This document shows positions 12,094 to 28,812 of a stretch of 34,108 bases of DNA, one piece after another. The position numbers and the translations under genes are program-made. Numbering within the stretch: position 1 is the first letter of the stretch; each line of letters starts with the position of its first letter. The DNA is from Planctomycetota bacterium (GTDB lineage: Bacteria; Planctomycetota; SZUA-567): assembly GCA_031270685.1 (NCBI GenBank), contig JAISXA010000230.1, positions 1 to 34,108 on the forward strand, in the 5' to 3' direction. The notes below the pieces were generated by a model. The model ran no database searches, was not told where the DNA came from, and saw only the letters and a program-made list of their open reading frames with translations.

Positions 12094-12969
12094 ATGATAA
12101 TGAGCGAGGAAATGTTCGCCAGGATTCCCCATTCCTGCGCTCTCAAAATCCAGGCGGGGTATCCGAACCTGAAGTCGGCGGAGCGACGGGCCGTCGATTT
12201 TCTCATGGCCAACGCCGAGCGCATCGCCGACCTGAACATCGTCGATTTCGCGTCGATGGCCGAGTGCAGCGAGGCGACGGCGGTGCGCATGGCCAAGCGG
12301 CTCGGCTACGAGGGGTATATCGAACTCCGGCGATCCTTCGACCTGCACCGCGATGCCGAGCCGGAGGGCGTCTATCCCGAGATCGATTCGAAGGATCCCC
12401 TGCCGACGATGCTGGAGAAGGTGTTCAATTCCAGCATGTCCTCCCTCGCGGACACGTTGCGCACTCTCGACCTGGGTCAATTCACCAGGGCGGTTGACGC
12501 GCTGGTGGGGTCGGGGCAGATCCTGTTTTGCGGCATCGGCGACGGCGGGGTGGTGGCTCGCGAAAGCTATCTGCGCTGGCTCAAGGTGGGGCATACCGCC
12601 TACGAGTCGCCGGACGCGGACGAGCAGCTGTTTTTCACCACCCGGCTCGGTCCGGGCGACGTCATGCTAGCCTTTTCCCATTCGGGGCGAAGCCGCACCG
12701 TCAACAATGCGGCGAAGCTGTCGCGCAAGCGCGGCGCGACGGTGATCGCGGTGACCAATTATCCCGTCTCGCCCCTGGTGAAAACCTCCGACATCATCCT
12801 CCAGACCGCCGTGTTCGCGACCTTCGCCAACTTCGAGGTCATCGCCAAGCGGCTGGCGCAGCTGTGCATCGTCGAGAGCCTGTTTATCGGCTTTTTGCAG
12901 AAAATGGGAAAGCCGTACCTGAAACGCATGCTCGCCTACGAGGAAAGCGTCAAGCCGAACAAGGTATGA
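12094..12969 (+). CDS. RpiR/MurR-family transcriptional regulator (HTH + SIS)
   Basis: Residues about 1-80 form an RpiR-type helix-turn-helix (SAERRAVDFLMANAERIADL, then SEATAVRMAKRLGYEGYIEL). Residues about 130-260 form a SIS domain (ILFCGIGDGGVVARES and LAFSHSGRSRTVNNAAKLS), which in this family senses a phosphorylated sugar. It lies between the two FGGY kinases in the same transcript, so it is the likely local regulator of the sugar cluster, probably releasing DNA on binding a pathway sugar phosphate. ATG 12094 is preceded by GGAGAAG. ATG 12100 is also possible. The longer track ORF from 12049 overlaps the kinase and is not needed. Confidence 0.9.
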   Translation: MIMSEEMFARIPHSCALKIQAGYPNLKSAERRAVDFLMANAERIADLNIVDFASMAECSEATAVRMAKRLGYEGYIELRRSFDLHRDAEPEGVYPEIDSKDPLPTMLEKVFNSSMSSLADTLRTLDLGQFTRAVDALVGSGQILFCGIGDGGVVARESYLRWLKVGHTAYESPDADEQLFFTTRLGPGDVMLAFSHSGRSRTVNNAAKLSRKRGATVIAVTNYPVSPLVKTSDIILQTAVFATFANFEVIAKRLAQLCIVESLFIGFLQKMGKPYLKRMLAYEESVKPNKV

Positions 12970-12972
12970 TCC

Positions 12973-14508
12973 ATGCACTTTCTCGGGATCGATTACGGCA
13001 CCGGCGGCGCCAAGGCCACGCTCATCGCCGACGACGGCTCCGTCAAGGGGCATTCCTTTCGCGAATACCCGATCCTCACGCCCAAACCCGGATGGTCCGA
13101 ACACGAGCCCGGCCTGTATTGGGTCTATGCCCGCGAAATGATCCGCGCCATCCTCGACGAAACCGGCGTCGACCCTGGGGACATCGGCGGCGTGGCCGTG
13201 TCCTCCGCCATGCCCTGCCTGGTCATGGTCGACAGAAACGGCGACCCGGTAGGCAAAGCATACAACCTCATGGACCGCCGGGCGGTGCGGCAGGTCGAGG
13301 CGGTGCGTTCGCTCTTCGGCGATCAAAAACTCTTCGCCGTAAGCAAAAACCGCCTGGACGACCATCCGGTCATCGTCAATCTGCTCTGGGAACGCGAAAA
13401 TCGTCCCGGCGATTTCAAGCGCGTCGACAAGGCGCTCACCATCGACGGGTTCGTCGTCCGCAAGCTGACTGGCTTAAGCCGTTGCCACTATTCGGGCGCC
13501 GCCTTTTACGGCGTGGCCTACGACCTTCTCGGGCGGCGCTTCAATCTCGACATGCTTGACGCTCTCGGTCTCGACGCCGGCCTGTTTCCCCGACTCGCCC
13601 GCTGCGACGCGATCGTCGGCGGCATCACCCGCGTGGCGGCGGCGGAGACCGGGCTCGCCCCGGGAACGCCGGTCGCGACGGGGCAGGTGGACTGCAACGC
13701 GGGATGGATCGGCGGCGGCATGATCAAGGAGGGCGACGTCCAGATGAATCTCGGCACCTGCGGCAATTTCGGGATTCTTCACCGCGACGCCAATTTCCAC
13801 GAAAGCATGATCGGCTTCGCCTACACCACCGATTCCGAAAATACCTATATCACCGTACCGACCACGACCACCGGCGGCCAGACCATCCGCTACCTGCGCG
13901 ACAACTACTACCGGTCGGAGAAGAATAACGAGGCGCGCGGGGGCGAAGACGCCTATGAGGTCATCAATCGCGAGGCGGCGAACGCTCCCGCCGGCTGCGG
14001 CGGGCTGGTCGCGCTGCCCTATCTCATGGGCGAGCGGACTCCGATATGGGACGTTCGGGCGCGCGGCGTCGTCTTCGGCCTCAGCCTCAACCATACCCGG
14101 GGCCATCTGGCGCGGGCGATGATGGAGTCGGTGGCCTTTGCGCTGTACGACTCCTTCCGGATAATAAAGTCGTCGGGACGGCCGGTGAATCCGCCGCTGG
14201 TGTTGAACGAGGGAGGGGCGAAAAGCGCGTTGTGGCGGCGCATCATAACCGACGTCTTCGACCTGCCGACCGTCCTGGTCGAACGCCGGAACGGCGCGCC
14301 CTATGGCGATGCGCTTCTTGCCGCCGTCGCGGTCGGCGCATTCAGGGATTTTTCTTTCGCCAGGGAGTGGACGCGCTATATTGATCCCATGGAGCCGGAT
14401 CCGGCGGCGCACCAACTGTATATGGACTATTTCTCCCTCTACAAGTCGCTGTACGAGCATGTGAAAGGCGATTTTCAGACTCTCGCGAAGCTTCGCGACA
14501 AGGATTGA
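12973..14508 (+). CDS. FGGY-family carbohydrate kinase, second copy (xylulokinase-like)
   Basis: This 511-residue kinase has the xylulokinase-type start FLGIDYGTGGAKATLI and the motif WSEHEPGLYWVYARE. The presumed catalytic aspartate is in ATGQVDCNAGWIGGG and the C-terminal sugar/ATP region is LNEGGAKSALWRRIITDVF. The spacing from the regulator stop is three bases. The Asn-Glu-Gly-Gly-Ala version of the usual N-x-G-G-G motif is a mild variation. It should phosphorylate a ketose or polyol at the end of the isomerase/dehydrogenase steps encoded upstream. The exact sugar is unknown. Confidence 0.88.
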   Translation: MHFLGIDYGTGGAKATLIADDGSVKGHSFREYPILTPKPGWSEHEPGLYWVYAREMIRAILDETGVDPGDIGGVAVSSAMPCLVMVDRNGDPVGKAYNLMDRRAVRQVEAVRSLFGDQKLFAVSKNRLDDHPVIVNLLWERENRPGDFKRVDKALTIDGFVVRKLTGLSRCHYSGAAFYGVAYDLLGRRFNLDMLDALGLDAGLFPRLARCDAIVGGITRVAAAETGLAPGTPVATGQVDCNAGWIGGGMIKEGDVQMNLGTCGNFGILHRDANFHESMIGFAYTTDSENTYITVPTTTTGGQTIRYLRDNYYRSEKNNEARGGEDAYEVINREAANAPAGCGGLVALPYLMGERTPIWDVRARGVVFGLSLNHTRGHLARAMMESVAFALYDSFRIIKSSGRPVNPPLVLNEGGAKSALWRRIITDVFDLPTVLVERRNGAPYGDALLAAVAVGAFRDFSFAREWTRYIDPMEPDPAAHQLYMDYFSLYKSLYEHVKGDFQTLAKLRDKD

Positions 14509-14513
14509 CCGCC

Positions 14514-15041
14514 ATGAACCCCGAAGACGGATCGAAGGATATCCCCGCTTTTCCCATTACCAACATCGCGCAGATCTGCATTCTCGTCCCCGACCTGGAC
14601 CAGGCCATGAAATCCTTCTGGGAGCGCTTCCGCGTGGGGCCGTGGACCATCTACACCTACCGGAAGCCGTTTGTCCCCAACATGACCCGGAACGGCAAGC
14701 CGGCCGAATACGCCAGCCGCATCGGACTCGCCAACATCGGCCCGCTGCGGCTGGAATTGATTCAGCCGCTCGAAGGCGACACCGTATACGGCGAATATAT
14801 CGCGAAGCACGGATATGGCGTGCAGCATCTCGGCATTTTGACCGATGACATGCGGAAATCGCTCGCCGAAGCCGAGGCGGCGGGACTGCGCATGACCATG
14901 GACGGCAGCGGCTTCGGCCTCGACGGCGACGGGCATTACGCTTACCTTGATACCGAGGATCTGGTGGGCGTCACCCTTGAACTGATCGAACGCCCGAAAC
15001 GCAGGCGTGAGCCGGAAGGCCATTATCCCTCGCGGGCATGA
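14514..15041 (+). CDS. VOC-superfamily (glyoxalase/methylmalonyl-CoA epimerase fold) protein
   Basis: The protein of 175 residues contains paired beta-alpha-beta modules of the VOC fold: AQICILVPDLDQAMKSFWE and GVQHLGILTDDMRKSLAEAE. The likely metal ligands are a Gln in the first strand (in place of the common His), Glu in LRLELIQP, His in GVQHLGIL and Glu in GVTLELIE. It could be an epimerase, isomerase or lyase acting on a pathway intermediate. The start is ATG 14514 after AAGGA; an in-frame TTG at 14505 is listed in the track. It is the last gene of the plus-strand cluster and overlaps the minus-strand DUF2877 gene by 19 bases tail to tail. Confidence 0.72.
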   Translation: MNPEDGSKDIPAFPITNIAQICILVPDLDQAMKSFWERFRVGPWTIYTYRKPFVPNMTRNGKPAEYASRIGLANIGPLRLELIQPLEGDTVYGEYIAKHGYGVQHLGILTDDMRKSLAEAEAAGLRMTMDGSGFGLDGDGHYAYLDTEDLVGVTLELIERPKRRREPEGHYPSRA

Positions 15042-15886
15042 GAGTCGCCGGAGATCGCCGCAAGCGCGCCCAGCATGCCGAGGAGCGCGTCCCATCCCGA
15101 GGAATGCCCTATCCGGTCGACTCGCGCAAGAAACGGTTTCAACTCGCCTCCGGCGACGGCCCAGGCCAGAAGCTCGTGGAAAACGGCCGCGCCCTGACCT
15201 TTGTCGGCGGCGAGCAGGTGGGCGGCGCTGACGCGGTTGGTGCGTTCTAGGCGCGGGATGACGGATTCGGCGAGCCGGTTCGCGCGGCCGTGAACCGCGA
15301 ATGCCCGGAGCGCGAGCAGTGCGCCGGCGAGGATGTCGTCGCCGCTCGGCGTGAGTCCGGGACCGAGGCCGAGCAGGATTTCGGCCGCGTCGCGGGGGCG
15401 TTCCGCCAGCGCGAGAAGCCCTTTTTGGATTTCGGCGAGAAGGAAGGGGGATATTTCTTCGCTGTCGGTTTTTTTCGGGTGGAGGCACGCCGCGACGAGC
15501 GTACGGGAGGGGGCGGACGTTTTCGCCGCCGCGCGGATGGCGCGATGCGCGGCGCGGATTGCCGTCGGCGCCGCCGCTGGCAAGGATCGGGGTCGCCAGA
15601 CTGCGGCCCCGGTTATCGGAATTGAAACAGCCGCCGACCTCAGCGTTCCGTCGGCTAACGCGAATTTGTCGCCGACGCGCGCGAACCGCCCGGCGTTTTC
15701 CGGCCAAGCGGCGCAATTCAGGTGCAGCGGCCCGGCTTCCCGGAACTCGGAAAGGACGCACAACATTCCGCCCGCGTCGTCGGAGAGGTAGAAGCCGCCG
15801 GCGAATACCGCTGTCGCCGTCAGGCCGCGCCCGTCGAGAAGGGGCAGGGCGATGGCGCCCGCTGAAACGGCGGCGGCGCGGAGCAT
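15023..15886 (-). CDS. allH: DUF2877 protein, oxamate carbamoyltransferase subunit AllH (YlbF-like)
   Basis: The 287-residue protein carries the DUF2877 hallmark LGLGPGLTPSGDDILAGALL in its C-terminal half and is close in length to E. coli YlbF (AllH). AllF (FdrA), AllG (YlbE) and AllH (YlbF) together act as oxamate carbamoyltransferase, which converts oxalurate and phosphate to oxamate and carbamoyl phosphate. The start ATG overlaps the carbamate kinase stop (TGATG), so the enzyme that uses carbamoyl phosphate and this subunit are translationally coupled. Its partners AllF and AllG lie 7-10 kb upstream in the same direction, an unusual separation. It is the last gene of the minus-strand cluster. 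Confidence 0.85.
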   Translation of the reverse strand: MLRAAAVSAGAIALPLLDGRGLTATAVFAGGFYLSDDAGGMLCVLSEFREAGPLHLNCAAWPENAGRFARVGDKFALADGTLRSAAVSIPITGAAVWRPRSLPAAAPTAIRAAHRAIRAAAKTSAPSRTLVAACLHPKKTDSEEISPFLLAEIQKGLLALAERPRDAAEILLGLGPGLTPSGDDILAGALLALRAFAVHGRANRLAESVIPRLERTNRVSAAHLLAADKGQGAAVFHELLAWAVAGGELKPFLARVDRIGHSSGWDALLGMLGALAAISGDSHAREG

Positions 15887-16842
15887 CAGGGAACCACGTG
15901 AGTGCCCGCCCCCCGGGCGAAGGCCTGGCCGAGGTTTTCCGGGCTGGTGATGATGACCTCCTTGCCGCCCGCCTTGATGAAATCGATGGCGGATTGGATC
16001 TTCGGTCCCATGCTTCCGGCGGGAAACTGGCCTTGCGCCATGTATTCCCCGAGCGCGGCGATATCGACCTTGCCGAGCTTTCTTTCCGCCTCCGTGCCGA
16101 AGTTGACGGCGACCTGCGGGACGCCGGTGGAAATGACGAGAAGATCGGCCCCGAGCTTGTTGGCGAGCAGGCGCGACGCGAGATCCTTGTCGATCACCGC
16201 GTCGACGCCCACATAGCTCCCGTCCGGCTTTTGCAGAACGGGAATGCCGCCGCCGCCGGCGGCGACGATGTTGAAGCCGGAATCCGCAAGGCTGCGCACC
16301 GCGTCCAGCTCGATGATCTCGATCGGCTTCGGCGACGGCACCACCCGCCGCCAGCCCCGGTTGGCGTCCTTTTTCATGGTCCAGTCGGGGTGTTCCTCGC
16401 GTACCTCCGTGGCCTTGCCGTCGTCGTAGAACTCGCCGACGAATTTGTCCGGATCGTTGAACTTGGGGTCATTGGGGTCGACCAGAACCTGGGTGATCAG
16501 GGTGACGGTGTTCGACGGCAGGCCGCGTTTCTTGAGCTCGTTGTGCAGCGCCTGTTGGATCTGATAGCCGATGCCGCCCATGGTGTCCGCGACGCAGGAG
16601 ACCAGCGGGAGGATGTGGAGGCCCGTGTGTCGGCGCGCCATCTCGGCCCTGAGCATCAGGAAGCCGACCTGGGGGCCATTGCCGTGGGTGACCACGACTT
16701 GCCAACCGCTCTCGATGACGTCGGCGATGTGTTTGGTTGTTTCCCGCACCGCGTCGTATTGGTCGGAGACGCTGATCTTTTTGCCGACGATTAACGAATT
16801 GCCGCCGATGGCGATGACCGCCAACTTCTTCTTGCCCGACAT
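15886..16842 (-). CDS. arcC: Carbamate kinase (ArcC/AllK)
   Basis: The 318-residue protein matches carbamate kinase along its length: LAVIAIGGNSLI at the start, VVVTHGNGPQVGFLMLR, NRGWRRVVPSPKPIEIIE, and IVAAGGGGIPV. It converts carbamoyl phosphate plus ADP to ATP, CO2 and ammonia. In this cluster that is the energy-yielding end step of allantoin breakdown, so it corresponds functionally to E. coli AllK. AGGAG lies six bases before the ATG, immediately beside repeat A1. The stop overlaps the AllH start. Confidence 0.93.
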   Translation of the reverse strand: MSGKKKLAVIAIGGNSLIVGKKISVSDQYDAVRETTKHIADVIESGWQVVVTHGNGPQVGFLMLRAEMARRHTGLHILPLVSCVADTMGGIGYQIQQALHNELKKRGLPSNTVTLITQVLVDPNDPKFNDPDKFVGEFYDDGKATEVREEHPDWTMKKDANRGWRRVVPSPKPIEIIELDAVRSLADSGFNIVAAGGGGIPVLQKPDGSYVGVDAVIDKDLASRLLANKLGADLLVISTGVPQVAVNFGTEAERKLGKVDIAALGEYMAQGQFPAGSMGPKIQSAIDFIKAGGKEVIITSPENLGQAFARGAGTHVVP

Positions 16843-16858: not shown

Positions 16859-17054
16859 GTCGACTTTTAAAGGAAATCGGGCCAACCGCCGCGCGATTTC
16901 CTTTAAAGATTCAACCGCTTTCGTTTTAATGGGTTGTTTTTTCGTCAACTCGACCCAAACCCGCGACGTTGCAAAAAAGCGTGGTTGAAAAGAACGCCCT
17001 GAAACTTTGAAGGAAATCAAACAGCGGTTTGTTTGATTTCCTTCAAAAGTCCAC
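16859..17054 (+). repeat. Family A repeat, full-length copy A1 (MITE-like)
   Basis: This is a 196-bp element with imperfect terminal inverted repeats: the left end reads GTCGACTTTTAAAGGAAATC and the reverse complement of the right end reads GTGGACTTTTGAAGGAAATC (18 of 20 identical). Each end folds into its own hairpin. The left one uses AAAGGAAATC with GATTTCCTTT. The right one uses GAAGGAAATCAAACA with TTGTTTGATTTCCTTC. TATAGG lies directly outside both ends (16853-16858 and 17055-17060) and could be a target duplication. The element sits between carbamate kinase and the allantoinase stop codon. Confidence 0.85.
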
Positions 17055-18502
17055 TATAGGGGGAAATGGCCATTAACCGGAGTTTCGCAAATTGGGCGTT
17101 CAAACCGCCGAATGCCCAATTTGTAAAAATCGCGATCCTTGCGGCACAAGCGTTTTTTAACCAGCCGTCCATGCTCCAGGTCGCCGATCGCGTCGCCGTC
17201 CCTCGCCACCACCTTGCCGCGCACCAGGGTAAGCGCCGGCAAGCCCTTGCCTTTGAGCCCGACGAACGCCGAATTCCGGTTCAGATACTTGAGCGAATCC
17301 GCCGTGATCTCCCATTCGCGGTCCGGGTCGAGAATCACCAGATCCGCGTCGAGGCCGGGGCGGATCGCGCCCTTCGCATGGTCGAGGCCGAACGCCCTAG
17401 CCGTGGCGGCGGACGCCCTCGCCAAAATAGACGGCGGGCAGCCGCGCTTGACGACGCCCTCCGAGAATACCGCCTGCATGAGGCTCTGGATGCCGGAAAT
17501 GCCGCCCCATGCCCCGAGCACGCCATGGGTCTTTTCGTCCTTTTCGTCGGCGCGGCACGGAGAATGGTCGGAGGCGAGGGAGCCAAGCGTCCCGTCGAGC
17601 ACGTATTCCCATAATTTTTCGCGCGCGGCGGCGCTGCGCAGGGGCGGCGCGCACTTGAGCATTTCGCCGTCCCGGATTACATCCTCGTCGCAGAACGTCA
17701 GGTAGTGGCCGCAGGTTTCGCCGGTCACGCGCACGCCTTCGCGTCGCGCGGCGCGGATGATCTCGGCGACGTCGGGATGGCTGACATGGCAAATATGGAC
17801 GCGGACGCCCATCTCCCTGGCGAGTTCGATGATGGCCCGGGTGGATATGATTTCCGCCGACGGCGGGCGCGAATCCAGGAAATCCCTCCAGGTCGCGTTC
17901 TTTCCGGCGCGTTCCGCGGCTTCCGCCTCACCGGATTTGATGATGTAATAATCCTCGCAATGGAAGCCGCCCAAGCCGTCGAAACGCTTGAGCACGGCCA
18001 TGGCCCGGCGAACCGTCCCCAGGTCGGTGGATGAATAATCCGGCGACACCGGGGCGATGAATGCCTTGAAGGCGACGACGCCCGCCTGGTCGAGCCCCTC
18101 CAGATCGCCCAAATTGGCCGGAACGAGCCCGCCCCAGAAGGCGTAGTCGACATGGCTGCGGCCGGCGACCGCCTTTTCCTTGGCGGCGAAGATTTCGGCG
18201 TTGGTCAGCGCCGGTTCGTTCTGAAGCGGCATGTCGATAATGGTCGTCACCCCGCCCGCCGCCGCCGCCGCGGAGCCGTGCGGGAAATCCTCGCGCCAGG
18301 TGAAGCCCGGGTCGTTTAGATGGACGTGCGAATCGATCATGCCGGGAAAGACGTATTTGCCGCCGGCGTCGATGGTCTCCGCCGCTCCGGCGTCGGCGAT
18401 GTCGCCGATCGCCGCGATCCTTCCGGCCTTGACCAGTATCCCGCCGGCGAAAACGCCGTCTTCGCAAACTATCCGCGCATTGACGATCTTCAGCTCATCC
18501 AT
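17054..18502 (-). CDS. allB: Allantoinase (AllB), copy 1, with repeat-derived C-terminal tail
   Basis: This cyclic amidohydrolase hydrolyses allantoin to allantoate using two metal ions. It has IDSHVHLNDPG (His59, His61), the carboxylated lysine in VVAFKAF (Lys146, the same number as in E. coli AllB), FHCED, HICHVSHP and SDHSPC. The ATG follows GGAGAGCCGTC. The last roughly 33 residues, from about KRLCRKDRD to the stop, are encoded by the family B repeat and the spacer before repeat A1, so the native C-terminus has been replaced or extended. The catalytic core is intact. It lies between AllD and carbamate kinase. A second allantoinase-like gene is at 25836. Confidence 0.9.
   Translation of the reverse strand: MDELKIVNARIVCEDGVFAGGILVKAGRIAAIGDIADAGAAETIDAGGKYVFPGMIDSHVHLNDPGFTWREDFPHGSAAAAAGGVTTIIDMPLQNEPALTNAEIFAAKEKAVAGRSHVDYAFWGGLVPANLGDLEGLDQAGVVAFKAFIAPVSPDYSSTDLGTVRRAMAVLKRFDGLGGFHCEDYYIIKSGEAEAAERAGKNATWRDFLDSRPPSAEIISTRAIIELAREMGVRVHICHVSHPDVAEIIRAARREGVRVTGETCGHYLTFCDEDVIRDGEMLKCAPPLRSAAAREKLWEYVLDGTLGSLASDHSPCRADEKDEKTHGVLGAWGGISGIQSLMQAVFSEGVVKRGCPPSILARASAATARAFGLDHAKGAIRPGLDADLVILDPDREWEITADSLKYLNRNSAFVGLKGKGLPALTLVRGKVVARDGDAIGDLEHGRLVKKRLCRKDRDFYKLGIRRFERPICETPVNGHFPL
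17077..17158 (+). repeat. Family B repeat, partial copy B1, inside an allantoinase reading frame
   Basis: This matches the left 80 or so bases of the complete B element at 20725-20858, including CCGCCGAATGCCC and ATCGCGATCCTTGCGGCAC. The hairpin CAAATTGGGCGTTC/GAATGCCCAATTTG is kept. Relative to copy B2, a T-to-A change in one arm is matched by an A-to-T change in the other. The right half is missing, replaced by allantoinase coding sequence. Read on the minus strand it is open and forms the protein tail. Confidence 0.8.
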
Positions 18503-18573: not shown

Positions 18574-19623
18574 TCAAACCGCGAAAGTGCCCTTGTTGTC
18601 GTAGTTGTTGCGATGGATCACGTCTGATACCAAGTAGGCGTAGATCTCGTCGACGATCTCGATCCCGTCCTTTTCGTAGGCCAATTTGCGCCGCCGGCTG
18701 CCTTCGCCGGGGAAGAGGACCTTGTCGTATCCGGGCGCGGGCTTGACCGCGTTCAGGTCGGCCATGAGCCGGTTGATATTCTTGAGGAACGCTTCCCGGT
18801 CGGTGAAGCGGGCCGGGTCGATGACGATGTGAAGCTGTCCCAGCATACGCATTTCGGTTAGATCGTTGTACATGGAAGTGACGTCCTTGCCGAACGGAAG
18901 TCCGAGAAGCACGCCGGAGAGGATGTCCACCATCATCGCCAGGGCGTAGCCCTTGGGCCCGGCGATGTGATTGAGCGCCGCGACCTGGAAGGGGTCCGTC
19001 GTCGGGTTGCCGTCCTTGTCCACCGCCCAGTCCTTGGGGATCTCCTCGTGGCGGGAGCGGGCGTGGAGGATCTTGCCCCACGCCTGGACCGTTACCGCCA
19101 GATCGACGATGACATGCCTCCCGTCGGCGGACGGCGAGGCGAAGGCGATCGGGTGGGTGCCGAAAAAAGGCTCCGCGCCGCCGTAGGGCACGGCCATCGG
19201 GTCCGATTGGCAGACGGAAATGCCGAGCAGGCCGGCGTCCGCCGCCTGTTCGACGAAATAGGACAGCGCCCCCGAATGCCCCATGCGGCGCATGCCGACG
19301 ACCGAGACGCCCGTTTCCTTGGCGATCCCGATGGCGTGGTCCATGCCGATCTTGGCGACGACCTGGCCGGCGGCATTGTCGCCGTCGAAAACCGCGGAGG
19401 CGGGTCCGGTGCGCTCGAACTTGAAATCGGGCTTGGCGTTGGTGCCGCCCTTGGCGATGCGCTCGGAATAGTATTCCACCCGCATCGCGCCGTGCGAGTG
19501 CACGCCGCGCAGGTCGGCGTGCGCCAGGACGTCGGCGACGATGTCGGCGTGTTCCCGGGAGAGCCCCGCCTTGTGGAGTTTGTCGCTCATCAGTTGGTGC
19601 AGTGTGTTCTTGTCTACGCGCAT
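18574..19623 (-). CDS. allD: Ureidoglycolate dehydrogenase (AllD)
   Basis: The 349-residue protein is collinear with E. coli AllD (also 349 residues). It shares RGVHSHGAMRVEYYSERI, RRMGHSGALSYFVEQAA, CQSDPMAVPYGGAEP, VTVQAWGKILHARSR and DILSGVLLGLPFGKDV. This Ldh2-family NAD(P)-dependent enzyme oxidises (S)-ureidoglycolate to oxalurate in the cytoplasm. AAGGAG lies eight bases before the ATG. It is preceded by the transcarbamylase-like gene and followed by allantoinase copy 1, so oxidation of ureidoglycolate feeds the carbamoyltransferase branch. Malate or lactate dehydrogenase activity is less likely given the detailed match. Confidence 0.95.
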   Translation of the reverse strand: MRVDKNTLHQLMSDKLHKAGLSREHADIVADVLAHADLRGVHSHGAMRVEYYSERIAKGGTNAKPDFKFERTGPASAVFDGDNAAGQVVAKIGMDHAIGIAKETGVSVVGMRRMGHSGALSYFVEQAADAGLLGISVCQSDPMAVPYGGAEPFFGTHPIAFASPSADGRHVIVDLAVTVQAWGKILHARSRHEEIPKDWAVDKDGNPTTDPFQVAALNHIAGPKGYALAMMVDILSGVLLGLPFGKDVTSMYNDLTEMRMLGQLHIVIDPARFTDREAFLKNINRLMADLNAVKPAPGYDKVLFPGEGSRRRKLAYEKDGIEIVDEIYAYLVSDVIHRNNYDNKGTFAV

Positions 19624-19660: not shown

Positions 19661-20686
19661 TCAGTTGACTCCGCAGATCGCGCCCAAAAGCGCCATGCGG
19701 AGCGGCACGCTGTAGCCGATCTGCTTGAAATAGAGCTGGAACTCGGTGTTGTCGATGGCCTGGTCGAACTCGAAGTCGTTGCGGGGCAGGGAGTGCATGA
19801 TGCCGATGGCGCGCCCGGTCTTCTTCTTCAGCTGCTGGAGGTCTTCGAGGGAGAAGTGATGGTTCGCCACCTTCTTCATGAAATCATCGCGGTTCGGATC
19901 CTCCTTCTTCAGCGAACTGCCCGGGAGGTAGAGGAGATCGGCTTTTTCCATCAGCTCGAGGTTGCCCTTCCGGTCGAGGTCGAAATGCTCTTCGTAGCTC
20001 GCGCCGATAGTCTTGAGCTTGTCGATCATCACCTGCGGCGTCCGCAGTTCGCTGGCGCCGGTGTAGACGATGTGCGCGCCCATGCGTGCGGCGCCGAGGG
20101 CGAAGGACTGGCCGGAGCGCGCGCGGGAAAGGTCCGGCGTCGAAATGATGATGCGCATCTCGTCGAGCGGCTTGTCGATCACCCGATAGGCGGTGTAGAT
20201 GTCCAGGAGTCCCTGGGTCGGGTGGGTGACGTGGCCGAAGCCGCCGCTGATGATCGGACAGGCGTTGGGGCCGAGCCGGTCGAGGGCGGCGAAAACCTCG
20301 TCCGCATCGCCGTGGCGCAGCACGAGGACGTCGGCGTATTGCGAAATGACGCGGATGCCGTCGTGGAGGCTTTCGTTCTTGGCCATGGCCGAGTTGTGCA
20401 ACGGGTCCGTTTCGGTGACCACCCTGCCGCCCATGCGGTGCATCGCCGCTTCGTGACTGCAACGGGTGCGGGTGCTGGGCTGGAAGAAAAGGGTGTAGAG
20501 AATCTTGCCCTTGAGGAGATCGAGCTGGGTGCGGGAATAGGGTTCGAGCAGCTTCGCCGCCTCGAAGAGTGCGGCGAGCTGTTCGCGCGTCCAGTCGTCG
20601 AGGAAGATCATGTTCTTGCCCTTCATGTCGGCGGCATTCAGTACGTCCTTGATATTCAAGGGTTTAAGATCGATTGCGAGAGGCAT
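19661..20686 (-). CDS. Aspartate-transcarbamylase-like carbamoyltransferase with altered substrate site
   Basis: The 341-residue protein keeps every carbamoyl-phosphate contact of aspartate transcarbamylase: STRTR (71-75), Ser99/Lys103/Glu105 in NSAMAKNES, Arg124-His125, HPTQ (155-158), and HSLPR (298-302). Arg190 aligns with the carboxylate-binding Arg167 of E. coli PyrB. The PyrB segment TRVQ that holds aspartate (Arg229, Gln231) is replaced by PGSS (255-258), and the following loop is longer. Aspartate is therefore an unlikely substrate. The setting between AllE and AllD suggests a purine-derived ureide or amide, such as oxamate/oxalurate or ureidoglycine. The start is ATG 20686 after AGGAG, not the upstream codon of the track ORF. 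No regulatory-chain gene (PyrI) is nearby. Confidence 0.82.
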   Translation of the reverse strand: MPLAIDLKPLNIKDVLNAADMKGKNMIFLDDWTREQLAALFEAAKLLEPYSRTQLDLLKGKILYTLFFQPSTRTRCSHEAAMHRMGGRVVTETDPLHNSAMAKNESLHDGIRVISQYADVLVLRHGDADEVFAALDRLGPNACPIISGGFGHVTHPTQGLLDIYTAYRVIDKPLDEMRIIISTPDLSRARSGQSFALGAARMGAHIVYTGASELRTPQVMIDKLKTIGASYEEHFDLDRKGNLELMEKADLLYLPGSSLKKEDPNRDDFMKKVANHHFSLEDLQQLKKKTGRAIGIMHSLPRNDFEFDQAIDNTEFQLYFKQIGYSVPLRMALLGAICGVN

Positions 20687-20920: not shown

Positions 20921-21700
20921 TCAGATTTCCACATCCCGGTGGCAGTCCTTGGAGTAGATGTACGAGAGGCGGCCGCGACCGGTGCCGTAGCACGCCTGCT
21001 TGGTGTAGGGGCCGAACCAGAGGAAATCCTCGGGCTGCACGGAGAGCCAGTCGTCGTCGAGAAGGTACATGCCCTGGCCCTCGTAGATGTACGCCCCGTG
21101 CTCCTGGACGTGCGTTTCGATGAACGGGTGGCAGCCGCCGGGGGCGAACGAAAGGGTGTGCATGTTCATGTCGTAGGTCTCGTCGACCGGCAGGAGGTCG
21201 CGGACAAAGACGTTTTCCATCTCGTCGTAGCTGCGCTCCTTGATGTCGTTGAGGTTGCCGAACACCGGCGCCGGAACGCGCGCGGGATCGGGATGCGGGA
21301 TATAACGTTGCTTGTACAAAAGGAAGCGGAGCGGTTTCGCGCCGACGTTCTTGAAGTGGATGCCCTTGCCCGCGGGCGCATAAGCGTAGCCGCCCTGGCC
21401 GAAGGTCTCGGTCCTGCCGCCCACGGCCAGTTCGAGCTCGCCCTCGCCGTCCAGGAAGTGGATGAAGGTCTCGACGCCCTCGGCGGCGCCGAATGCGCTT
21501 TTCGCGCAGCCGCCGCCGGCCTGCGCCGTGCCGATGTACTGCACGAAGCCGGCGCCGATCTTGGGGGTGCAGAGGATGGTGGTCCGGCAATTTTCCAGGC
21601 CCGGAATGACGTTGAACACCCGGCCCTCCGGGGGAACGAGGGCATAGATTCCCGGCTTGACCACGGCACGGGTTTTCAGGGGGCCATCGGGATACGGCAT
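20921..21700 (-). CDS. allE: (S)-ureidoglycine aminohydrolase (AllE)
   Basis: The 259-residue bicupin matches E. coli AllE (261 residues) throughout. Examples are KPGIYALVPPEGRVFNVIPG, the second-cupin metal motif region MNMHTLSFAPGGCHPFIE with THVQEHGAYI, and the ending YSKDCHRDVEI. It converts (S)-ureidoglycine to (S)-ureidoglycolate and ammonia using Mn, setting up oxidation by AllD. The start is ATG 21700, seven bases after AGGAG. The 58 extra N-terminal residues of the track ORF come from the promoter region and repeat A2 and are not real. A candidate FCD-regulator operator lies 87 bases upstream. Confidence 0.95.
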   Translation of the reverse strand: MPYPDGPLKTRAVVKPGIYALVPPEGRVFNVIPGLENCRTTILCTPKIGAGFVQYIGTAQAGGGCAKSAFGAAEGVETFIHFLDGEGELELAVGGRTETFGQGGYAYAPAGKGIHFKNVGAKPLRFLLYKQRYIPHPDPARVPAPVFGNLNDIKERSYDEMENVFVRDLLPVDETYDMNMHTLSFAPGGCHPFIETHVQEHGAYIYEGQGMYLLDDDWLSVQPEDFLWFGPYTKQACYGTGRGRLSYIYSKDCHRDVEI

Positions 21701-22030: not shown

Positions 22031-22774
22031 CTAGCCGGATTTTCTGCGTTTTTCGTTTTGCGCTTTCTCGCTGTGGCGGCGCGCGCTTTCGCGCCGGTTG
22101 CGGTCGCGCGCGAGATCGACCACGTTGTCGAGGTGCCTGTCCATGGCCTCGACCGCCATTTCCGCGTCGCCCTTGGTCACGGCATTGAGGACGACGTCGT
22201 GCTGCCTGGCGACCCCGGCCCGGAAAGCGCGGCTTTGCAACAGCTCGCGGTTGAACTCGGCCATCAGCCGGCGCATGGTCTTCATCGTCTCGAACAGCAT
22301 TGAATTCCGCGCCGCCTCGGCGATCGCGCTGTGGAAGGCGAAATCGCACTCGATGAAGCGCTCCATATCGTCGACGCTCGCTTTCGTCCGCTCCTGTATC
22401 TCGCGCAGCGTTTCCAGGTCCTCCCCGCTGGCGCGTTCGCTGGCGAACCGGACGGCGGCCTTCTCGACGACCTTGCGCATTTCGATCATCTCCTCGAGCG
22501 TATACTGGTTGAGGAAGGTGGAAAAACCCGATTCCATCGGGAAATCGGCGCTTTTCACATAGATGCCGTCGCCGTAGCGGGTTTCGATGACGCCGGCGTA
22601 TTCCAGCGCGCGCAGCGATTCGCGCAGCGGCGGCCGGCTGACCCCGAGCTGCTCCGCCATCTCGCGCTCCGGCGGCAGCCGGTCGCCGGGTTGCAGTTTG
22701 CCGTTGCGGATCAAATCGGTCAGTTGGTTGATGACCTGCGAAGCGATCGTTTTCTTGCTGACTTTTTTCAACAT
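22031..22774 (-). CDS. GntR-family transcriptional regulator, FCD (FadR) subfamily
   Basis: The N-terminal winged helix is classical: QVINQLTDLIRNGKLQPGDRLPPEREMAEQLGVSRPPLRESLRALEYAGVI, covering about residues 14-64. Residues about 85-215 form the all-helical FCD ligand domain (MIEMRKVVEKAAVRFASERA, then DFAFHSAIAEAARNSML). FCD regulators usually sense small organic acids. Oxamate, glyoxylate, allantoate or ureidoglycolate are plausible here. The start is ATG 22774, because the protein then begins directly with the wing-helix domain; no strong ribosome binding site precedes it. It lies between AllG and AllE, next to an operator-like palindrome. The C-terminal tail is basic. Confidence 0.92.
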   Translation of the reverse strand: MLKKVSKKTIASQVINQLTDLIRNGKLQPGDRLPPEREMAEQLGVSRPPLRESLRALEYAGVIETRYGDGIYVKSADFPMESGFSTFLNQYTLEEMIEMRKVVEKAAVRFASERASGEDLETLREIQERTKASVDDMERFIECDFAFHSAIAEAARNSMLFETMKTMRRLMAEFNRELLQSRAFRAGVARQHDVVLNAVTKGDAEMAVEAMDRHLDNVVDLARDRNRRESARRHSEKAQNEKRRKSG

Positions 22775-22839
22775 GGCAACCCGTCCATTTCCGGATCGGA
22801 ATCCTCTTCCCCTTTCCTTCCGCCCAAGGCCGGGCGGGG

Positions 22840-24273
22840 TCACCGACCGCATTTTCCCAGGCGCTTTTCCGCGAAGCGCGACAGCGCCCGGCGCATGATC
22901 TCCATCGGCGGCGTGACGATCCCCGCCCCCACCTGTCCGACGCCGGGCAGGCGGTGCGCGACGCCGGTGTTGATGACCGGCATGATTCCCGTCGCCACAA
23001 CCCGGCGAATGTCGATCGCCGACGGGATGCCGATGAAATCCATGCCCGGAATCGGCAGGTCCGGGTTCGGTCCGACCGCGATTTCGCGCATCGTCCTGGT
23101 GTAGCGGTAGGCGTCCTCCGCTCCCCCGGCGCCGACGAAGCGCACCACCGCCGGTGCGGCGCCCATGGCCATGCCGCCGATGCCGAAACACTCGACGATG
23201 GCGGAATCGCCCATGTCGGGATTGGCGTCCGCCTCGCTGAAGCCTGGGAAGTAAAGCGCCTGCGGCTTGAGGCAGGGCGCGGTGAACCATTCTCCCTCGA
23301 GATCGGAGACGTTGATGCCGAAGTCGACGCCGTTCCGGCTCATCGCCGTCACCACGGTGGAATAGGGGATGCCGCGCAACGGATCCATGATCGCCTTGCA
23401 CGAGGCCATGGCGAGGTTGAGGAAAAACTGTTCGTTCCCGCCCGCGACGAACTCGACCGCCTTTCTGCCTTCCGGATTCCCGGACAGGGCGGCGTGGAAC
23501 CCGCCCGCGACGGCCTTGTGGAAGTTGAGGCTCGCCGCGACGTTCCGCTGGTGCATTTCGTCGCCCATTGCCAGCGACTGCGCCATCACCACCTTAAGGT
23601 CCACGCCGCCGCCGTCGACCAGCGCCTGGTCGATCGCGGGCGCGAGGACCGTTTCGATCCACCTGAGATTCGCGATCACCGACTCGTCGTTCGCGCCGAA
23701 GCGCATGACCTTGCCGATGCCCTCGTTGACGGGACAGAAGGCCTGGTTGCCGAAGGGTTCGTTCTCGACGACGAACACCGGCATGGAATGGGAGATCATC
23801 CCGGTCATCGGCCCGACGGCGCGGTGATGGTGGTTGGGGCGGCACTTGATTTTCCCCGAGGCGAGAAGTGTTTCCGCCCCGGCGTCGTCCTTGGCGAGGC
23901 CCTCGTATTTGACCGCGCCGACGAACGCGCCCCGCATCGGGCCGCACATGTCCGCCCAGGCGATGGGCGGGCCGGCGTGGAGGATCGTCTCCTTGTCGAG
24001 TCCCGCGATCACCTCGTGGGCGGGGCGGACCCGCTTCAGGACCGGCCGGCCCTTTCTCAGCCTGTCGAACGCTTCGCGGTTTGCCCGGTCGATGAGCGAG
24101 TCGCCCTTGTCATCGACGCATTCCGTTTCCAGGCGGAACAGCGCGTCCACCAGCTTGGCGTCCCCGCCCGCCGGCGGCTTCCAATCGAGGCGGGTGTACG
24201 GGGTATCGCTTTCCGCGAACGCCGCGTCGAAGACGTCCACCCCCAGAACCGCGACCTGCAGTTTATTGGTCAT
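22840..24273 (-). CDS. allG: DUF1116 protein, oxamate carbamoyltransferase subunit AllG (YlbE-like)
   Basis: The 477-residue protein has the DUF1116 pattern, including WADMCGPMRGAFVGAVKYEG, ASGKIKCRPNHHHRAVGPM and GGNEQFFLNLAMASCKAIMDP. It corresponds to E. coli YlbE (AllG), which with AllF and AllH makes oxamate carbamoyltransferase. The start is ATG 24273, placed within the end of fdrA (11-base overlap), so the two subunits are coupled in translation. The track ORF start at 24330 would add arginine-rich residues from the fdrA frame and is rejected. Confidence 0.9.
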   Translation of the reverse strand: MTNKLQVAVLGVDVFDAAFAESDTPYTRLDWKPPAGGDAKLVDALFRLETECVDDKGDSLIDRANREAFDRLRKGRPVLKRVRPAHEVIAGLDKETILHAGPPIAWADMCGPMRGAFVGAVKYEGLAKDDAGAETLLASGKIKCRPNHHHRAVGPMTGMISHSMPVFVVENEPFGNQAFCPVNEGIGKVMRFGANDESVIANLRWIETVLAPAIDQALVDGGGVDLKVVMAQSLAMGDEMHQRNVAASLNFHKAVAGGFHAALSGNPEGRKAVEFVAGGNEQFFLNLAMASCKAIMDPLRGIPYSTVVTAMSRNGVDFGINVSDLEGEWFTAPCLKPQALYFPGFSEADANPDMGDSAIVECFGIGGMAMGAAPAVVRFVGAGGAEDAYRYTRTMREIAVGPNPDLPIPGMDFIGIPSAIDIRRVVATGIMPVINTGVAHRLPGVGQVGAGIVTPPMEIMRRALSRFAEKRLGKCGR

Positions 24274-25807
24274 CGCCGTCTCCCGTAACGCCCATCGCCG
24301 CGCGCGCCGCCCACCTCGCCGCGCGCGCATTGCTGGCCAGCACGATCACGCCGGCCTCCCGCAGGATTTTCGCCTGGCTTTCCCGGGTCGGATTGTCGGC
24401 GTCGGTTCCGGTGACGGAGGCGACGACGATTTTTTCTTCGCTTTCCGGCTTCGCGGCCGTGAGCGCCTCGACGGCGAGTTCGGCCTGGCGGGGATGCGAT
24501 CCGTGGCCGATAACCAGGTCCATGAGCACGACCCGCACTCCCGGGTCGCGGAGCGCGGCCGCGATGCGGTCCATTTTGAGGTCGGGCGCCATCATCGGAT
24601 GCGGCCGGCCAACGGTGAATTCGTCTTCGCCCAGGTCCAGGAAAAGGTGGCCGGAGAACGCGTCCGAGCCGCCGATTTTTTCATATCCAGGCGCGGAAAG
24701 ATTGGACGCCCTGGGGCTGGAAAGCATTTCCCCGCAGATCAGCGCCGCCTCCTGGCACAGGGTGCCGCCGCCGAAAATGCCGTGCAGGCAGCCGCTTTTC
24801 GCCGGCGAGGGCGGGGGGGGAGCGCTTTCGGCGTCGCCGAGCGCCGCGCTCGGGCGAACGTGCCGCGCTGCCTTTACCGCCAGTTCCTCGAGGTCTCGGG
24901 CCGCCGCGACGCCGGCCTTCTCCTCAGCGGAATACTCGTCGGCGCCGAGGTAATGGACGAAGGCGGGTTTGCCGATTTCGCGGATCCGCGCCAACAGCTT
25001 TTTTCGCGTCTCGCGACCGGGAGGTTTTCCGAGGATGACGAGCGCCTCGACGGTCGGATCCTTGCCCAGCCTGTTCAGTGCGGCCAGCGCGGTGATTCCG
25101 CCGACATCGTCCTTGAGGTCGCGGCCGCCGGCGCCGTAGGCCTGGCCGATGCCCACGCCCATGCGCTCCAGAAGACAAGTCACTTCCTGCAGGCCGGTTC
25201 CGGATGCGCCGACGACGCCGACCGGCCCTTTGCGCACGCGGTTGGCGAAAGCTAGCGGCGTGCCGTCGATGATCGCGGTGCCGCAATCGGGCCCCATGAC
25301 CAGGAGCCCCTTCCGGTCCGCCAGCCGCTTGAGCGCGAGTTCGTCGGCGAGCGAGATATTGTCGCTGTAAAGCATCACATCCATGCCGAGGGCAAGCGCC
25401 TCGGCCGCCTCGTAACGGGCGAAATCCCCGGCGACCGACACCAGGGCGATGTTGAGGCCGGCGTCGGCCCGTTTGGCCTGCCGGAGGGTCGCCGGCGTCT
25501 CCTCGCCGACGCCGCCGCTTTTGCGGCGCTCAGGTTCCGCGTCGAGCAGTTGCAGCGCCAGTGCGGCGGCGGCGTCCACCCCGGCGGCATCGCCCTTGAT
25601 GGCGATCGCGAGGTCGTTCGGGGCGGCGGCGGCGATCTCCGGCGTCATGAGCCCGGAAGCGGCGAACAGGTCCTTGTTGCGGTCGGTCGCCATCATCGCG
25701 GAGACCGCCTCGACGCCGCCGCTCCTGGAAGCCTGCGCGGACAACCGCATCAGGAAAATGGAGTCCCGGTAGCTGTCCCTCTTTATTACAGCGAAAACTC
25801 GCGACAT
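24263..25807 (-). CDS. fdrA: FdrA-like protein, oxamate carbamoyltransferase subunit AllF
   Basis: The 514-residue protein resembles FdrA (555 residues in E. coli) and the acyl-CoA synthetase alpha-type fold. It has LVMGPDCGTAIIDGTPLAFA, the loop VGVVGASGTGLQEVTCLLER and GQAYGAGGRDLKDDVGG. In E. coli FdrA (AllF) is part of the oxamate carbamoyltransferase complex with AllG and AllH. ATG 25807 follows GAGGAG by five bases. The gene overlaps allG and is preceded by allantoinase copy 2, in one transcription unit. It is about 40 residues shorter than the E. coli protein. Confidence 0.9.
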   Translation of the reverse strand: MSRVFAVIKRDSYRDSIFLMRLSAQASRSGGVEAVSAMMATDRNKDLFAASGLMTPEIAAAAPNDLAIAIKGDAAGVDAAAALALQLLDAEPERRKSGGVGEETPATLRQAKRADAGLNIALVSVAGDFARYEAAEALALGMDVMLYSDNISLADELALKRLADRKGLLVMGPDCGTAIIDGTPLAFANRVRKGPVGVVGASGTGLQEVTCLLERMGVGIGQAYGAGGRDLKDDVGGITALAALNRLGKDPTVEALVILGKPPGRETRKKLLARIREIGKPAFVHYLGADEYSAEEKAGVAAARDLEELAVKAARHVRPSAALGDAESAPPPPSPAKSGCLHGIFGGGTLCQEAALICGEMLSSPRASNLSAPGYEKIGGSDAFSGHLFLDLGEDEFTVGRPHPMMAPDLKMDRIAAALRDPGVRVVLMDLVIGHGSHPRQAELAVEALTAAKPESEEKIVVASVTGTDADNPTRESQAKILREAGVIVLASNARAARWAARAAMGVTGDGDDQ

Positions 25808-25835
25808 GACCACTCCTCAAGTTTCAAGTCGCCGA

Positions 25836-27206
25836 TCAGCGATTATTGATGGGTCTGACGAACTTGCCGAACCCCGGTTCGACCTCGACTACGTTTTTCA
25901 CCCCGTCGTAGACCTTGACGCCGCGAACGTATGTCCCGAGGATCCGGCCGCGGATCCTCCGCCCCTCGAAGGGCGTCGCCTTTTCCCTGCTTTTGCCGAG
26001 CGAGCGCTCCCAGCTCCAGGTCCATTCCGCGTCCGGATCGACGACGACCAGGTCGGCGTCGGAGCCGACGCCGATCACGCCTTTCCGCGGATACAGTTCG
26101 AAGCGGCGGGCCGTGTTCGTCGCCAGAAGGCGCGCCAACCGCTCGGCCGGCAGGCCGCGCCGGTTGAATCCGGCGTCGAGCATGAGCGGGAAGGCGAGGT
26201 CGATGCCGGAAAGTCCGGGGGGCGATTCCCACAACGGCAAATCCCGGTCCTCGTCCAGGTACGGCGAGTGGTCGGAGGCGACCATCTGGATGTCGCCGTC
26301 CATGATCATCTTCCACAGCGCCTCCCGGTTCGCCTGGTCGCGGATAGGCGGGTTGCATTTGGCACGCGCGCCGCAACGGTCGAGGTCGCTGTCGTCCAGG
26401 GTCAGGTAGCTGTGGCAGGTCTCGACCGTGAAATCCGCCCCGCGTTCGCGGTAGAACCTCATGACGGCGGCGGTTTTGGCGGAGGAGAGGTGGCAGATGT
26501 GCATCCGGGCGCCGCTTTCCCGCGCGAAGAGGAGCGCCCGCTGTACCGCCTCGATCTCGGCGACGTCGGGGCGCGAGTCGAGGTGCGCCCGGCCGTCCTG
26601 TCGCCCCTCCCTGGTGAATGCTTCGCAGCAGTTGTCGATGATGTCGTGGTTTTCCGCATGCACGCCCACCAGGCCGTCGAAGCCGGCGACGTCGCGGAGC
26701 GCGCGCAGGAAGTCGTAGTCGCCCATGCGCGGGCTGTCGGGATCGGTCGAAAGGAAGACCTTGAACGCAACCGCGCCGAGGTCGTGCATTTCGCGGTAAT
26801 GCCCTTCGGCGTACGTGTTCATCCCCGCCCAGAACGCGAAGTCGACGTGCGACTTCTTCGCGGCGATCCCCATCTTGAGGACGAAAGCCGCCTTGTCGAC
26901 GGTGAGGGGTATGGACAGGGGCATTTCCATGACCGTGGTCACGCCGCCGGCGGCGGCCTGTCGCGAACCGCTCTCCCAATCCTCGCGGTGGGTGTTGGGA
27001 CCGGGTTCCTTGAAATGAACGTGCGGATCGATCATGCCGGGAAACAGCATCATGCCGCCGAGATCGATATCGCGGTCCGCCTCCGCATGAACCGCCTTGT
27101 CGGCCAAGAAGAGAACGCGCCCGCCCTTGACGCCGACGGCGAGCGCCTGGACGCGGTCCTCGAGGACCACGCGGTCGCAGCGCAGGATCAAATCGCATTT
27201 TTCCAT
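25836..27206 (-). CDS. Allantoinase-like cyclic amidohydrolase, copy 2
   Basis: The 456-residue amidohydrolase has all metal ligands of the allantoinase/dihydropyrimidinase group: IDPHVHFKEPGP (His62, His64), lysine in AVAFKVF, HAEN, HICHLSSA and SDHSPY. EMPLSIPLTVDKA matches the allantoinase region EMPLNQLPATVDRA well. It should open a ureide ring, most likely allantoin. The paralogue at 17054 is clearly diverged (for example HCED against HAEN), so one of the two may act on another cyclic ureide such as a hydantoin. The start is ATG 27206 after AAAGGA; an upstream in-frame ATG at 27221 has no such site. It lies between the permease and fdrA. Confidence 0.85.
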   Translation of the reverse strand: MEKCDLILRCDRVVLEDRVQALAVGVKGGRVLFLADKAVHAEADRDIDLGGMMLFPGMIDPHVHFKEPGPNTHREDWESGSRQAAAGGVTTVMEMPLSIPLTVDKAAFVLKMGIAAKKSHVDFAFWAGMNTYAEGHYREMHDLGAVAFKVFLSTDPDSPRMGDYDFLRALRDVAGFDGLVGVHAENHDIIDNCCEAFTREGRQDGRAHLDSRPDVAEIEAVQRALLFARESGARMHICHLSSAKTAAVMRFYRERGADFTVETCHSYLTLDDSDLDRCGARAKCNPPIRDQANREALWKMIMDGDIQMVASDHSPYLDEDRDLPLWESPPGLSGIDLAFPLMLDAGFNRRGLPAERLARLLATNTARRFELYPRKGVIGVGSDADLVVVDPDAEWTWSWERSLGKSREKATPFEGRRIRGRILGTYVRGVKVYDGVKNVVEVEPGFGKFVRPINNR

Positions 27207-27225: not shown

Positions 27226-28812
27226 TCACCCGAACGCCATCACCAGCGCGCCGATCACGGCGGCGCTGGCCACGGACGCCCCGAGCAGGCGGCGGATGAC
27301 CACGCCTTCCTGGCCGACCACCCCCGCGGTGGTCGCGCCGAGCATCACCTTGGACGGGGAGATGATGCAGCCGAGCGCGCCGCCGCTGGTCTGCGCGGCC
27401 AGGATGACCGCGACGTCGAAGCCGGTGAGGGTGGCGGTGGCATATTGGAACTGTCCGAAAAGGACGTTCGAACTGACGTTGGACGACGACATGAACGCGC
27501 CGAGCACGCCGACGAGCGGCGACAGCGCCCCGTACCATGAACCGGTCAGGTTCGCGGCCGAGGCGGCGAGGACGGCGGTTTGGCCGCTGCCGCCCATGAT
27601 CTTGCTCATGCCGATGAGGAGGATCACGGACAGCGCGGCGGGAAGCGCCTTTTTCCAAGTCGCGGCGCAGGCCGCGCGGATCCCGTTGCCGGGGAGCAGA
27701 TCTTTGCCATGATAGTACAACCCGGCCGTGACCGCCGAAAGCAGCAGGAAGAAGCCGGAGTGGGTAAGCCAGGCGATGGGGGAATGATACGCCGATCCCT
27801 CGCTCGCGAATCCTAGGCCGGTCGTGGAGGGTGCGAACGCGAAGCCGGTGGTGAATCGCCCGAGAGCCGATTTCACCGGTCCGACCAGGAGAACCAACAG
27901 GGTAATGACGGTGAGCGCGTAGTATGGGAGCATCGCCTGGTGCAAACTCATGGCGGCGGGTTCTGCGAGGTCGCCGGACTTTTCGCCTTCCACGATCGGG
28001 CTGTCGTCCTCGCGGCCGCCGGCGTACCTTGGCAGTCGGGCGAGAAGGAACGCGAGACCGAGGGCCGCCGTCGTCGGGATGACTGTGGAAAGCGAGGGCA
28101 GGACGCGGGTCAGAAGCATCTGCCCGCCGCCCATGACCAGTCCGAACGGGAGGATCGCCGGGAGGCCGTGGCGGACACCGCGAGCGCCGTCGTAGAACCA
28201 GCAGATGAAGAAGCCGGCCAGAACATTCATGGCGAAGAGGAACAAGCCCGCCCAGAACGCCGCCGAAAGCCAGATTCCGGCCGGCAGGTCCGCCTGCTGC
28301 ACCAGGGCGTCCCAGGCCAGGGCGAGGGTGCCGAAAGTGTTCGCCCAGCCGTGTCCCATGAGGGGGATGGCCACCGCCCACACCGGTTTGACGCCGATGG
28401 CGATGAGGAGCGGCGCGGTGACCGCAATCGGCACGCCGAAGCCGGACGGCCCCTGCAGGAAGCTGGCGAAGCACCAGCCGAGGGTAAGCGCCTGAAGCAG
28501 CCGGTCCGGAATGAGACGGGTCAGTCCGCGGCGGATCGCCGGGAAGGCGCCGGCCTGGAGGCTGATTTCATAGATAAGGATCGCGGGGAAGATGACGATG
28601 ATGATGGAGACGCTGTTCCACAGCCCCCTTAGGGCGTCAAACGCGATGTGTCCAGCCGACGCCCGGTAGAAGAGGAGGGCGATGGCGGCCGCGAGGGCGA
28701 TGCCGACGACCGAGGCGTGGACCGCCGTCCACTTGAAGCCGATAAGGAGGACGACGAGCGCGACGATCGGCACGGCTGCGGCGAGAGTGAGGAGCGGCGT
28801 CGCTTGGAGCAT
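27226..28812 (-). CDS. LctP-family permease (L-lactate/glycolate permease type)
   Basis: The 528-residue protein is almost entirely hydrophobic with about a dozen or more spans. It carries family stretches such as LQGPSGFGVPIAVTAPLL, MGHGWANTFGTLALAWDAL and MSSSNVSSNVLFGQFQY. LctP proteins move lactate or glycolate with protons. In this operon the natural small acids are oxamate, glyoxylate and ureidoglycolate. Oxamate, a close mimic of pyruvate and lactate, is the end product to be disposed of, so export or exchange of oxamate is a reasonable inference. The start is ATG 28812 after AAGGGG. The track ORF's extra 98 N-terminal residues are encoded by repeats A3 and B3 and are spurious. Confidence 0.88.
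   Translation of the reverse strand: MLQATPLLTLAAAVPIVALVVLLIGFKWTAVHASVVGIALAAAIALLFYRASAGHIAFDALRGLWNSVSIIIVIFPAILIYEISLQAGAFPAIRRGLTRLIPDRLLQALTLGWCFASFLQGPSGFGVPIAVTAPLLIAIGVKPVWAVAIPLMGHGWANTFGTLALAWDALVQQADLPAGIWLSAAFWAGLFLFAMNVLAGFFICWFYDGARGVRHGLPAILPFGLVMGGGQMLLTRVLPSLSTVIPTTAALGLAFLLARLPRYAGGREDDSPIVEGEKSGDLAEPAAMSLHQAMLPYYALTVITLLVLLVGPVKSALGRFTTGFAFAPSTTGLGFASEGSAYHSPIAWLTHSGFFLLLSAVTAGLYYHGKDLLPGNGIRAACAATWKKALPAALSVILLIGMSKIMGGSGQTAVLAASAANLTGSWYGALSPLVGVLGAFMSSSNVSSNVLFGQFQYATATLTGFDVAVILAAQTSGGALGCIISPSKVMLGATTAGVVGQEGVVIRRLLGASVASAAVIGALVMAFG

Follow-up and report, generated by a model that had tools for sequence, protein, structure and literature searches.

A gene resembling that for aspartate transcarbamylase (ATCase) lies among allantoin-degradation genes in a planctomycete genome, which raises the question of what acceptor its product serves and how such an enzyme would fit into allantoin breakdown. 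The stretch of DNA analyzed here (the window; 34,108 nucleotides) is one whole contig of a 3.18 Mb genome that comprises 283 contigs and is 88.65% complete; planctomycete MAGs are its nearest named relatives. The preliminary description of this locus had placed the gene at 19661–20686, and this frame holds: it runs on the minus strand from an ATG at 20686 to a stop at 19661 and encodes 341 amino acids, with a GTG at 20716 as a further possible start. The sequence, predicted fold, clade, motif exchange, and neighbors of the gene, along with the lack of a detectable AllC in the genome, lead us to predict with high confidence that the product is a catabolic ureidoglycine transcarbamylase (UGTCase).

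The allantoin cluster of the window

The gene is part of a run of genes on the minus strand. Reading from upstream to downstream, these encode an LctP-type permease that may be the pathway transporter (27226–29106; PF02652, 253.5 bits); a second allantoinase-type cyclic amidohydrolase (25836–27206; TIGR03178, 387.9 bits, cut-off 357.85); the oxamate transcarbamylase subunits AllF (FdrA; 24263–25813; NF004760, 440 bits, cut-off 433) and AllG (22840–24273, start estimated; PF06545, 274.8 bits, cut-off 27); a GntR/FCD regulator, possibly of the operon itself (22031–22777, start estimated; PF07729 and PF00392); the (S)-ureidoglycine aminohydrolase AllE (20921–21700; TIGR03214, 314.6 bits, cut-off 200); the predicted UGTCase; the ureidoglycolate dehydrogenase AllD (18574–19623; TIGR03175, 551 bits, cut-off 496.2); the allantoinase AllB (17054–18502; TIGR03178, 425.3 bits, cut-off 357.85); a carbamate kinase in the AllK role (15886–16842; PRK12352, 401.5 bits, cut-off 266); and the remaining oxamate transcarbamylase subunit, AllH (15023–15886; PF11392, 71.8 bits, cut-off 25). 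Intergenic gaps are about 234 bases between AllE and UGTCase, 37 between UGTCase and AllD, 71 between AllD and AllB, and 211 between AllB and the carbamate kinase. The position between AllE and AllD proposed in the preliminary description is thus borne out by models scoring over their cut-offs, as is its view that two routes to carbamoyl phosphate coexist, with AllF, AllG, and AllH encoded in the same cluster as the transcarbamylase.

Other features of the window lie around this core. The second amidohydrolase, beside AllF, perhaps acts on the other allantoin enantiomer or on another cyclic ureide. A branched-chain amino acid/urea-type ABC transporter, encoded upstream of the allantoin genes (29123–33962, minus strand), may serve ureide uptake. 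A separate sugar cluster on the plus strand (1210–14508) includes a weak match to sulfoquinovose isomerase, a sugar-type ABC transporter, a zinc alcohol dehydrogenase, a DRL-type oxidoreductase, an RpiR-type regulator, and two FGGY kinases. No Rfam family matched the window.

Active site and separation from aspartate transcarbamylase

Profile searches recovered both transcarbamylase domains in the window protein (PF02729, 130.8 bits; PF00185, 39.1 bits). The AlphaFold2 model (pLDDT 93.3, pTM 0.91) resembles ATCase catalytic chains such as 1ml4, with TM-scores of 0.80/0.89, and the protein is accordingly predicted to adopt the ATCase fold. The best named model is likewise that for aspartate transcarbamylase (asp_carb_tr), but its score of 181.9 bits falls below the cut-off of 236.95.

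Alignment locates the change within the active site. The carbamoyl-phosphate residues are all present, as had been claimed: S71-T-R-T-R75 (STRTR, the carbamoyl-phosphate loop; 20462–20476, minus strand), K103, R124-H125, H155-P-T-Q158, and L300-P-R302. The counterpart of E. coli Arg167 is also retained, as R190. Conversely, the aspartate-binding segment R229-x-Q231 of the E. coli enzyme is replaced by G256-S257-S258 (19913–19921, minus strand), R234 by K261, and P266 by S299, the last within an HSLPR motif (residues 298–302; 19781–19795, minus strand) that is the UGTCase form of the ATCase HPLPR. The preliminary description had also reported loss of Arg229-x-Gln231 together with a longer loop; the lengthening is real, since HPTQ and the substrate site are 100 residues apart (94 in the E. 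coli enzyme) and the stretch between the GSS site and HSLP contains another insertion. Two exchanges are additional to that account, the one at P266 and Q69 in place of E. coli E50, as is the minus-strand orientation of the gene.

These exchanges are consistent across relatives recovered in the genome scan described below. Among the best 80 scan loci, all 73 rows of the clade carry G-x-S at the substrate site, and YLPG[CS]S, H[ST]LPR, and the Arg167 counterpart are invariant; in 15 of 15 true ATCases, by comparison, R229, Q231, and P266 are invariant (RxQ and HP). Ureidoglycine can be regarded as aspartate in which the side-chain carboxymethyl is swapped for a neutral ureido group, and retention of the Arg167 counterpart with loss of R229, Q231, and R234 is what would be expected if aspartate had been exchanged for ureidoglycine.

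A divergent ATCase whose contacts to aspartate have moved elsewhere in the protein would account for the fold and for the identity of the best named model, which the window protein shares with PyrB along with the carbamoyl-phosphate site and the Arg167 counterpart. However, this reading is scarcely credible given the sub-threshold score, the missing R229, Q231, and R234, and the placement of the protein outside the ATCase clade; in place of the RxQxxER aspartate loop and HPLP of PyrB, the window protein has GSS and HSLP. Furthermore, the same genome encodes a normal pyrB elsewhere, with LRIQFER and HPGP motifs and flanked by pyrR-like and pyrC-like genes, as well as an argF. In trees, the window protein falls outside both ATCases and ornithine transcarbamylases (OTCases). 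Assignment as aspartate transcarbamylase was rejected on these grounds (motif, score, clade, and separate pyrB), in agreement with the preliminary description, which held that the gene is not the housekeeping PyrB; the sequence observations it had named as contrary to its reading, namely placement in the PyrB clade and the lack of another pyrB, were not found.

YgeW was also considered and rejected. This protein is likewise a transcarbamylase that occurs in purine-related clusters, but the window protein scores only 21.3 bits against the YgeW model (TIGR03316; cut-off 500) and is distant from it in the tree, as expected from the earlier statement that it is not YgeW-like.

Relationship to described UGTCases

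The "pseudo-ATCases" were described in 2013 by Barba et al. (PMC4016543), who reported phosphate- or arsenate-dependent cleavage of allantoate by Rxyl_2847 of Rubrobacter xylanophilus, giving ureidoglycine and carbamoyl phosphate; the UGTCase reaction is allantoate + Pi <-> ureidoglycine + carbamoyl phosphate (PMC4016543). Motifs H[ST]LP and GX[SC] are listed for one pseudo-ATCase subgroup in Table 1 of that study, and H(T/S)LP is assigned to UGTCase, with residue numbers, in a review (PMC4581275). Subgroup numbers in the table and the text of PMC4016543 seem discordant, and the tie between motif and UGTCase used here follows PMC4581275 and a Rubrobacteraceae sequence from our scan (L101; 339 amino acids). 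This sequence carries the published UGTCase residue at 13 of 14 positions, with the remaining one shifted by one place, and by this match it would thus be Rxyl_2847 or a close relative. In the window protein, S258, K261, H155, and Q158 occur at the same numbers as the published residues, and R190 is the counterpart of published R189. The features by which UGTCases can be recognized are present throughout: STRT and HPTQ (S71–T74 and H155–Q158), GX[SC] instead of RxQ (G256-S257-S258), H[ST]LP (H298-S-L-P301), and a gene near those for allantoinase and carbamate kinase, here AllB and the carbamate kinase downstream.

Relatives were collected in a single genome scan, which artificial guide rows steered to the peptide FQPSTRT. 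The best 80 loci comprise 73 at 38–87% identity and seven ATCase-like loci at about 30%. Because Q69 is part of the search pattern, its conservation is circular and was excluded from the evidence. The survey genomes were all found by this one pattern, and the frequencies given below apply to the sample of best 80 loci.

Phylogenetic analysis places the window protein, L101, and the remaining relatives in one clade (99/98 support) apart from the ATCases, with L101, not Rxyl_2847 itself, as the Rubrobacteraceae representative. Sub-clade A includes Rubrobacteraceae, Actinomyces, Chloroflexota, and others; sub-clade B, to which the window protein belongs, includes Planctomycetota, most Pseudomonadota, Synergistota, and Bacillota. 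On this basis, the window protein is a new predicted member of the already described UGTCase family. The preliminary description had contrasted ATCase-like proteins with ureidoglycine types, a distinction that does not hold, as the characterized UGTCase is itself an ATCase-like "pseudo-ATCase" (PMC4016543) whose clade includes the window protein.

In addition to the clade, Rxyl_2847 (PMC4016543) shares with the window protein GxS for RxQ, H[ST]LP, an equal distance between HPTQ and the substrate loop, and allantoinase and carbamate kinase neighbors. However, identity to the Rubrobacteraceae representative is 44%, the motif there is HTLP rather than HSLP, and the partners AllE, AllD, and AllFGH of the window are not shown in the published Rubrobacter cluster. 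The assayed enzyme, moreover, comes from Rubrobacter, of the sub-clade A family Rubrobacteraceae, and function in sub-clade B, which holds the window protein, is assigned by analogy.

Several loci of Chloroflexota, Spirochaetota, and other relatives have a second transcarbamylase-like gene near the UGTCase (L103, L108, L109, L110, L111, L112), which is YgeW-like at 26–28% identity, or PyrB-like in L112. A search of viral contigs with a pattern for planctomycete orthologs, built from lineage-specific peptides, found nothing, and plasmid records gave only weak, PyrB-like matches.

The one assay of a UGTCase concerns a single actinobacterium, and the name is rare in the open-access literature. 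Here, UGTCase emerges as a coherent family over several phyla, whose members score best against ATCase models and consistently have a gene for a ureidoglycine-consuming enzyme nearby.

Genomic context and proposed pathway

Among the 53 whole genomes with UGTCase from the best 80 scan loci, AllE was found in 32 and allantoicase in five; AllG occurs in 22 and was absent from 31, and AllD occurs in three, all planctomycetes of the window's family. AllE is directly upstream of UGTCase in 26 of 45 sub-clade B loci, several of which are cut by contig ends. In eleven genomes (G000, G011, G395, G401, G403, G407, G409, G420, G429, G430, and G432), AllE and UGTCase are present whereas AllC-like proteins and allantoicase are both missing, which leaves UGTCase as the sole ureidoglycine source visible there.

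A different arrangement occurs in marine gammaproteobacteria of sub-clade B. AllE was not found in their survey genomes, and their operon encodes UGTCase, an asparaginase homolog, carbamate kinase, and a class-V aminotransferase, then AllG, AllF, and AllH. The best solved match of the aminotransferase is ureidoglycine–glyoxylate aminotransferase (3nnk; E 2.8e-158). With AllE or this aminotransferase near the gene, two unrelated ureidoglycine-consuming enzymes are linked to the UGTCase clade, and ureidoglycine is therefore the most likely acceptor, rather than oxamate or aspartate. The preliminary description had expected a purine-derived acceptor, which is most likely so; of its candidates, ureidoglycine gains from the clade and from these neighbors, while oxamate/oxalurate loses ground because relatives occur next to AllE or the aminotransferase, often in genomes that lack AllFGH.

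An oxamate (oxalurate) or ureidoglycolate transcarbamylase, acting as a second enzyme for the AllFGH step, would fit a cluster shared with AllD and AllFGH in which oxalurate is a pathway intermediate. It is nonetheless unlikely: AllFGH already covers this reaction here; 50 of the 53 genomes are without AllD and 31 without AllG; and AllE (32 of 53) or ureidoglycine aminotransferase puts the substrate upstream of ureidoglycolate. Oxamate/oxalurate is accordingly disfavored as substrate.

Ureidoglycine as acceptor also accords with the place of the gene. The E. coli genes run allE-allC-allD, so that the UGTCase gene of the window, between AllE and AllD, occupies the allC place. No AllC match was found in the window's own genome even at E 0.01, though at 88.65% completeness this absence is not final. 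E. coli AllC shares this location and the proposed substrate, allantoate, but this M20-type hydrolase is unrelated, and it yields ammonia and carbon dioxide where a transcarbamylase would yield carbamoyl phosphate; in E. coli, consequently, only one carbamoyl phosphate arises. None of the 53 genomes has AllC over the model cut-off, which says little because that cut-off is strict, and a lack of matches at loose E-values carries more weight. Two observations speak against the present assignment: an AllC-like M20 protein occurs in 35 of the genomes, and in a sister planctomycete (G015) an AllC-like M20 amidohydrolase gene (L056:3164–4339) lies between UGTCase and AllD; allantoate hydrolysis and phosphorolysis may therefore coexist in that sister planctomycete.

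We infer the substrate of the window protein, the details of its binding, the direction of flux, and a yield of two ATP. AllB would convert allantoin to allantoate, whose carboxylate would be bound by R190, with phosphate in the STRTR/K103/R124/H155 pocket. Attack of phosphate on a ureido carbonyl would then release ureidoglycine together with carbamoyl phosphate. At the position of the aspartate side-chain carboxylate, the uncharged ureido arm would be met by G256-S257-S258, K261, and S299, not by R229, Q231, R234, and P266. AllE would convert ureidoglycine to ureidoglycolate and ammonia, and AllD ureidoglycolate to oxalurate; AllF/G/H would convert oxalurate and a second phosphate to oxamate and carbamoyl phosphate, an activity (OXTCase) established for E. 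coli AllFGH (PMC11326118). Carbamate kinase would turn both carbamoyl phosphates into two ATP. The E. coli AllF-AllG-AllH system (PMC11326118) resembles the proposed UGTCase in forming carbamoyl phosphate from an allantoin-derived ureide, and its counterparts are separate genes of the window; however, these proteins are unrelated to the window protein, which is of the ATCase family, and act at another step (oxalurate).

The carbamoylation direction, in which ureidoglycine and carbamoyl phosphate yield allantoate, for example for nitrogen storage or export, would agree with a carbamoyltransferase equilibrium that favors carbamoylation (PMC4016543). We regard it as very improbable in this cluster, where carbamate kinase, AllE, AllD, and AllFGH would pull away the catabolic products.

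Overall, we favor, with fair confidence, all-phosphorolytic allantoin fermentation in the catabolic direction, in which UGTCase replaces the hydrolytic AllC and, with AllFGH and one carbamate kinase, provides two ATP per allantoin; marine gammaproteobacteria seem to join the same pair by an aminotransferase instead of AllE and AllD. Since UGTCase is in the usual place of the allantoate-hydrolyzing gene, beside a second phosphate-splitting enzyme, this bacterium probably gains two ATP per allantoin instead of one. The enzyme family itself is known; a less common feature is the combination with AllFGH by way of AllE and AllD, which in the best 80 scan loci is confined to the window's planctomycete family. 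With this combination, both ureido groups of allantoin would be removed by phosphorolysis. If the pairing operates as proposed, the two ATP from allantoin by substrate-level phosphorylation would bear on how anaerobes and marine bacteria recycle purine nitrogen, and some "pyrB" annotations would need correction.

The marine operon, a double route without AllE and AllD, is seen at L082:11245–18251 and in matching stretches of L079–L090. Its asparaginase homolog, encountered next to the Rubrobacteraceae gene as well, might function as an amidase on a product of the pathway.
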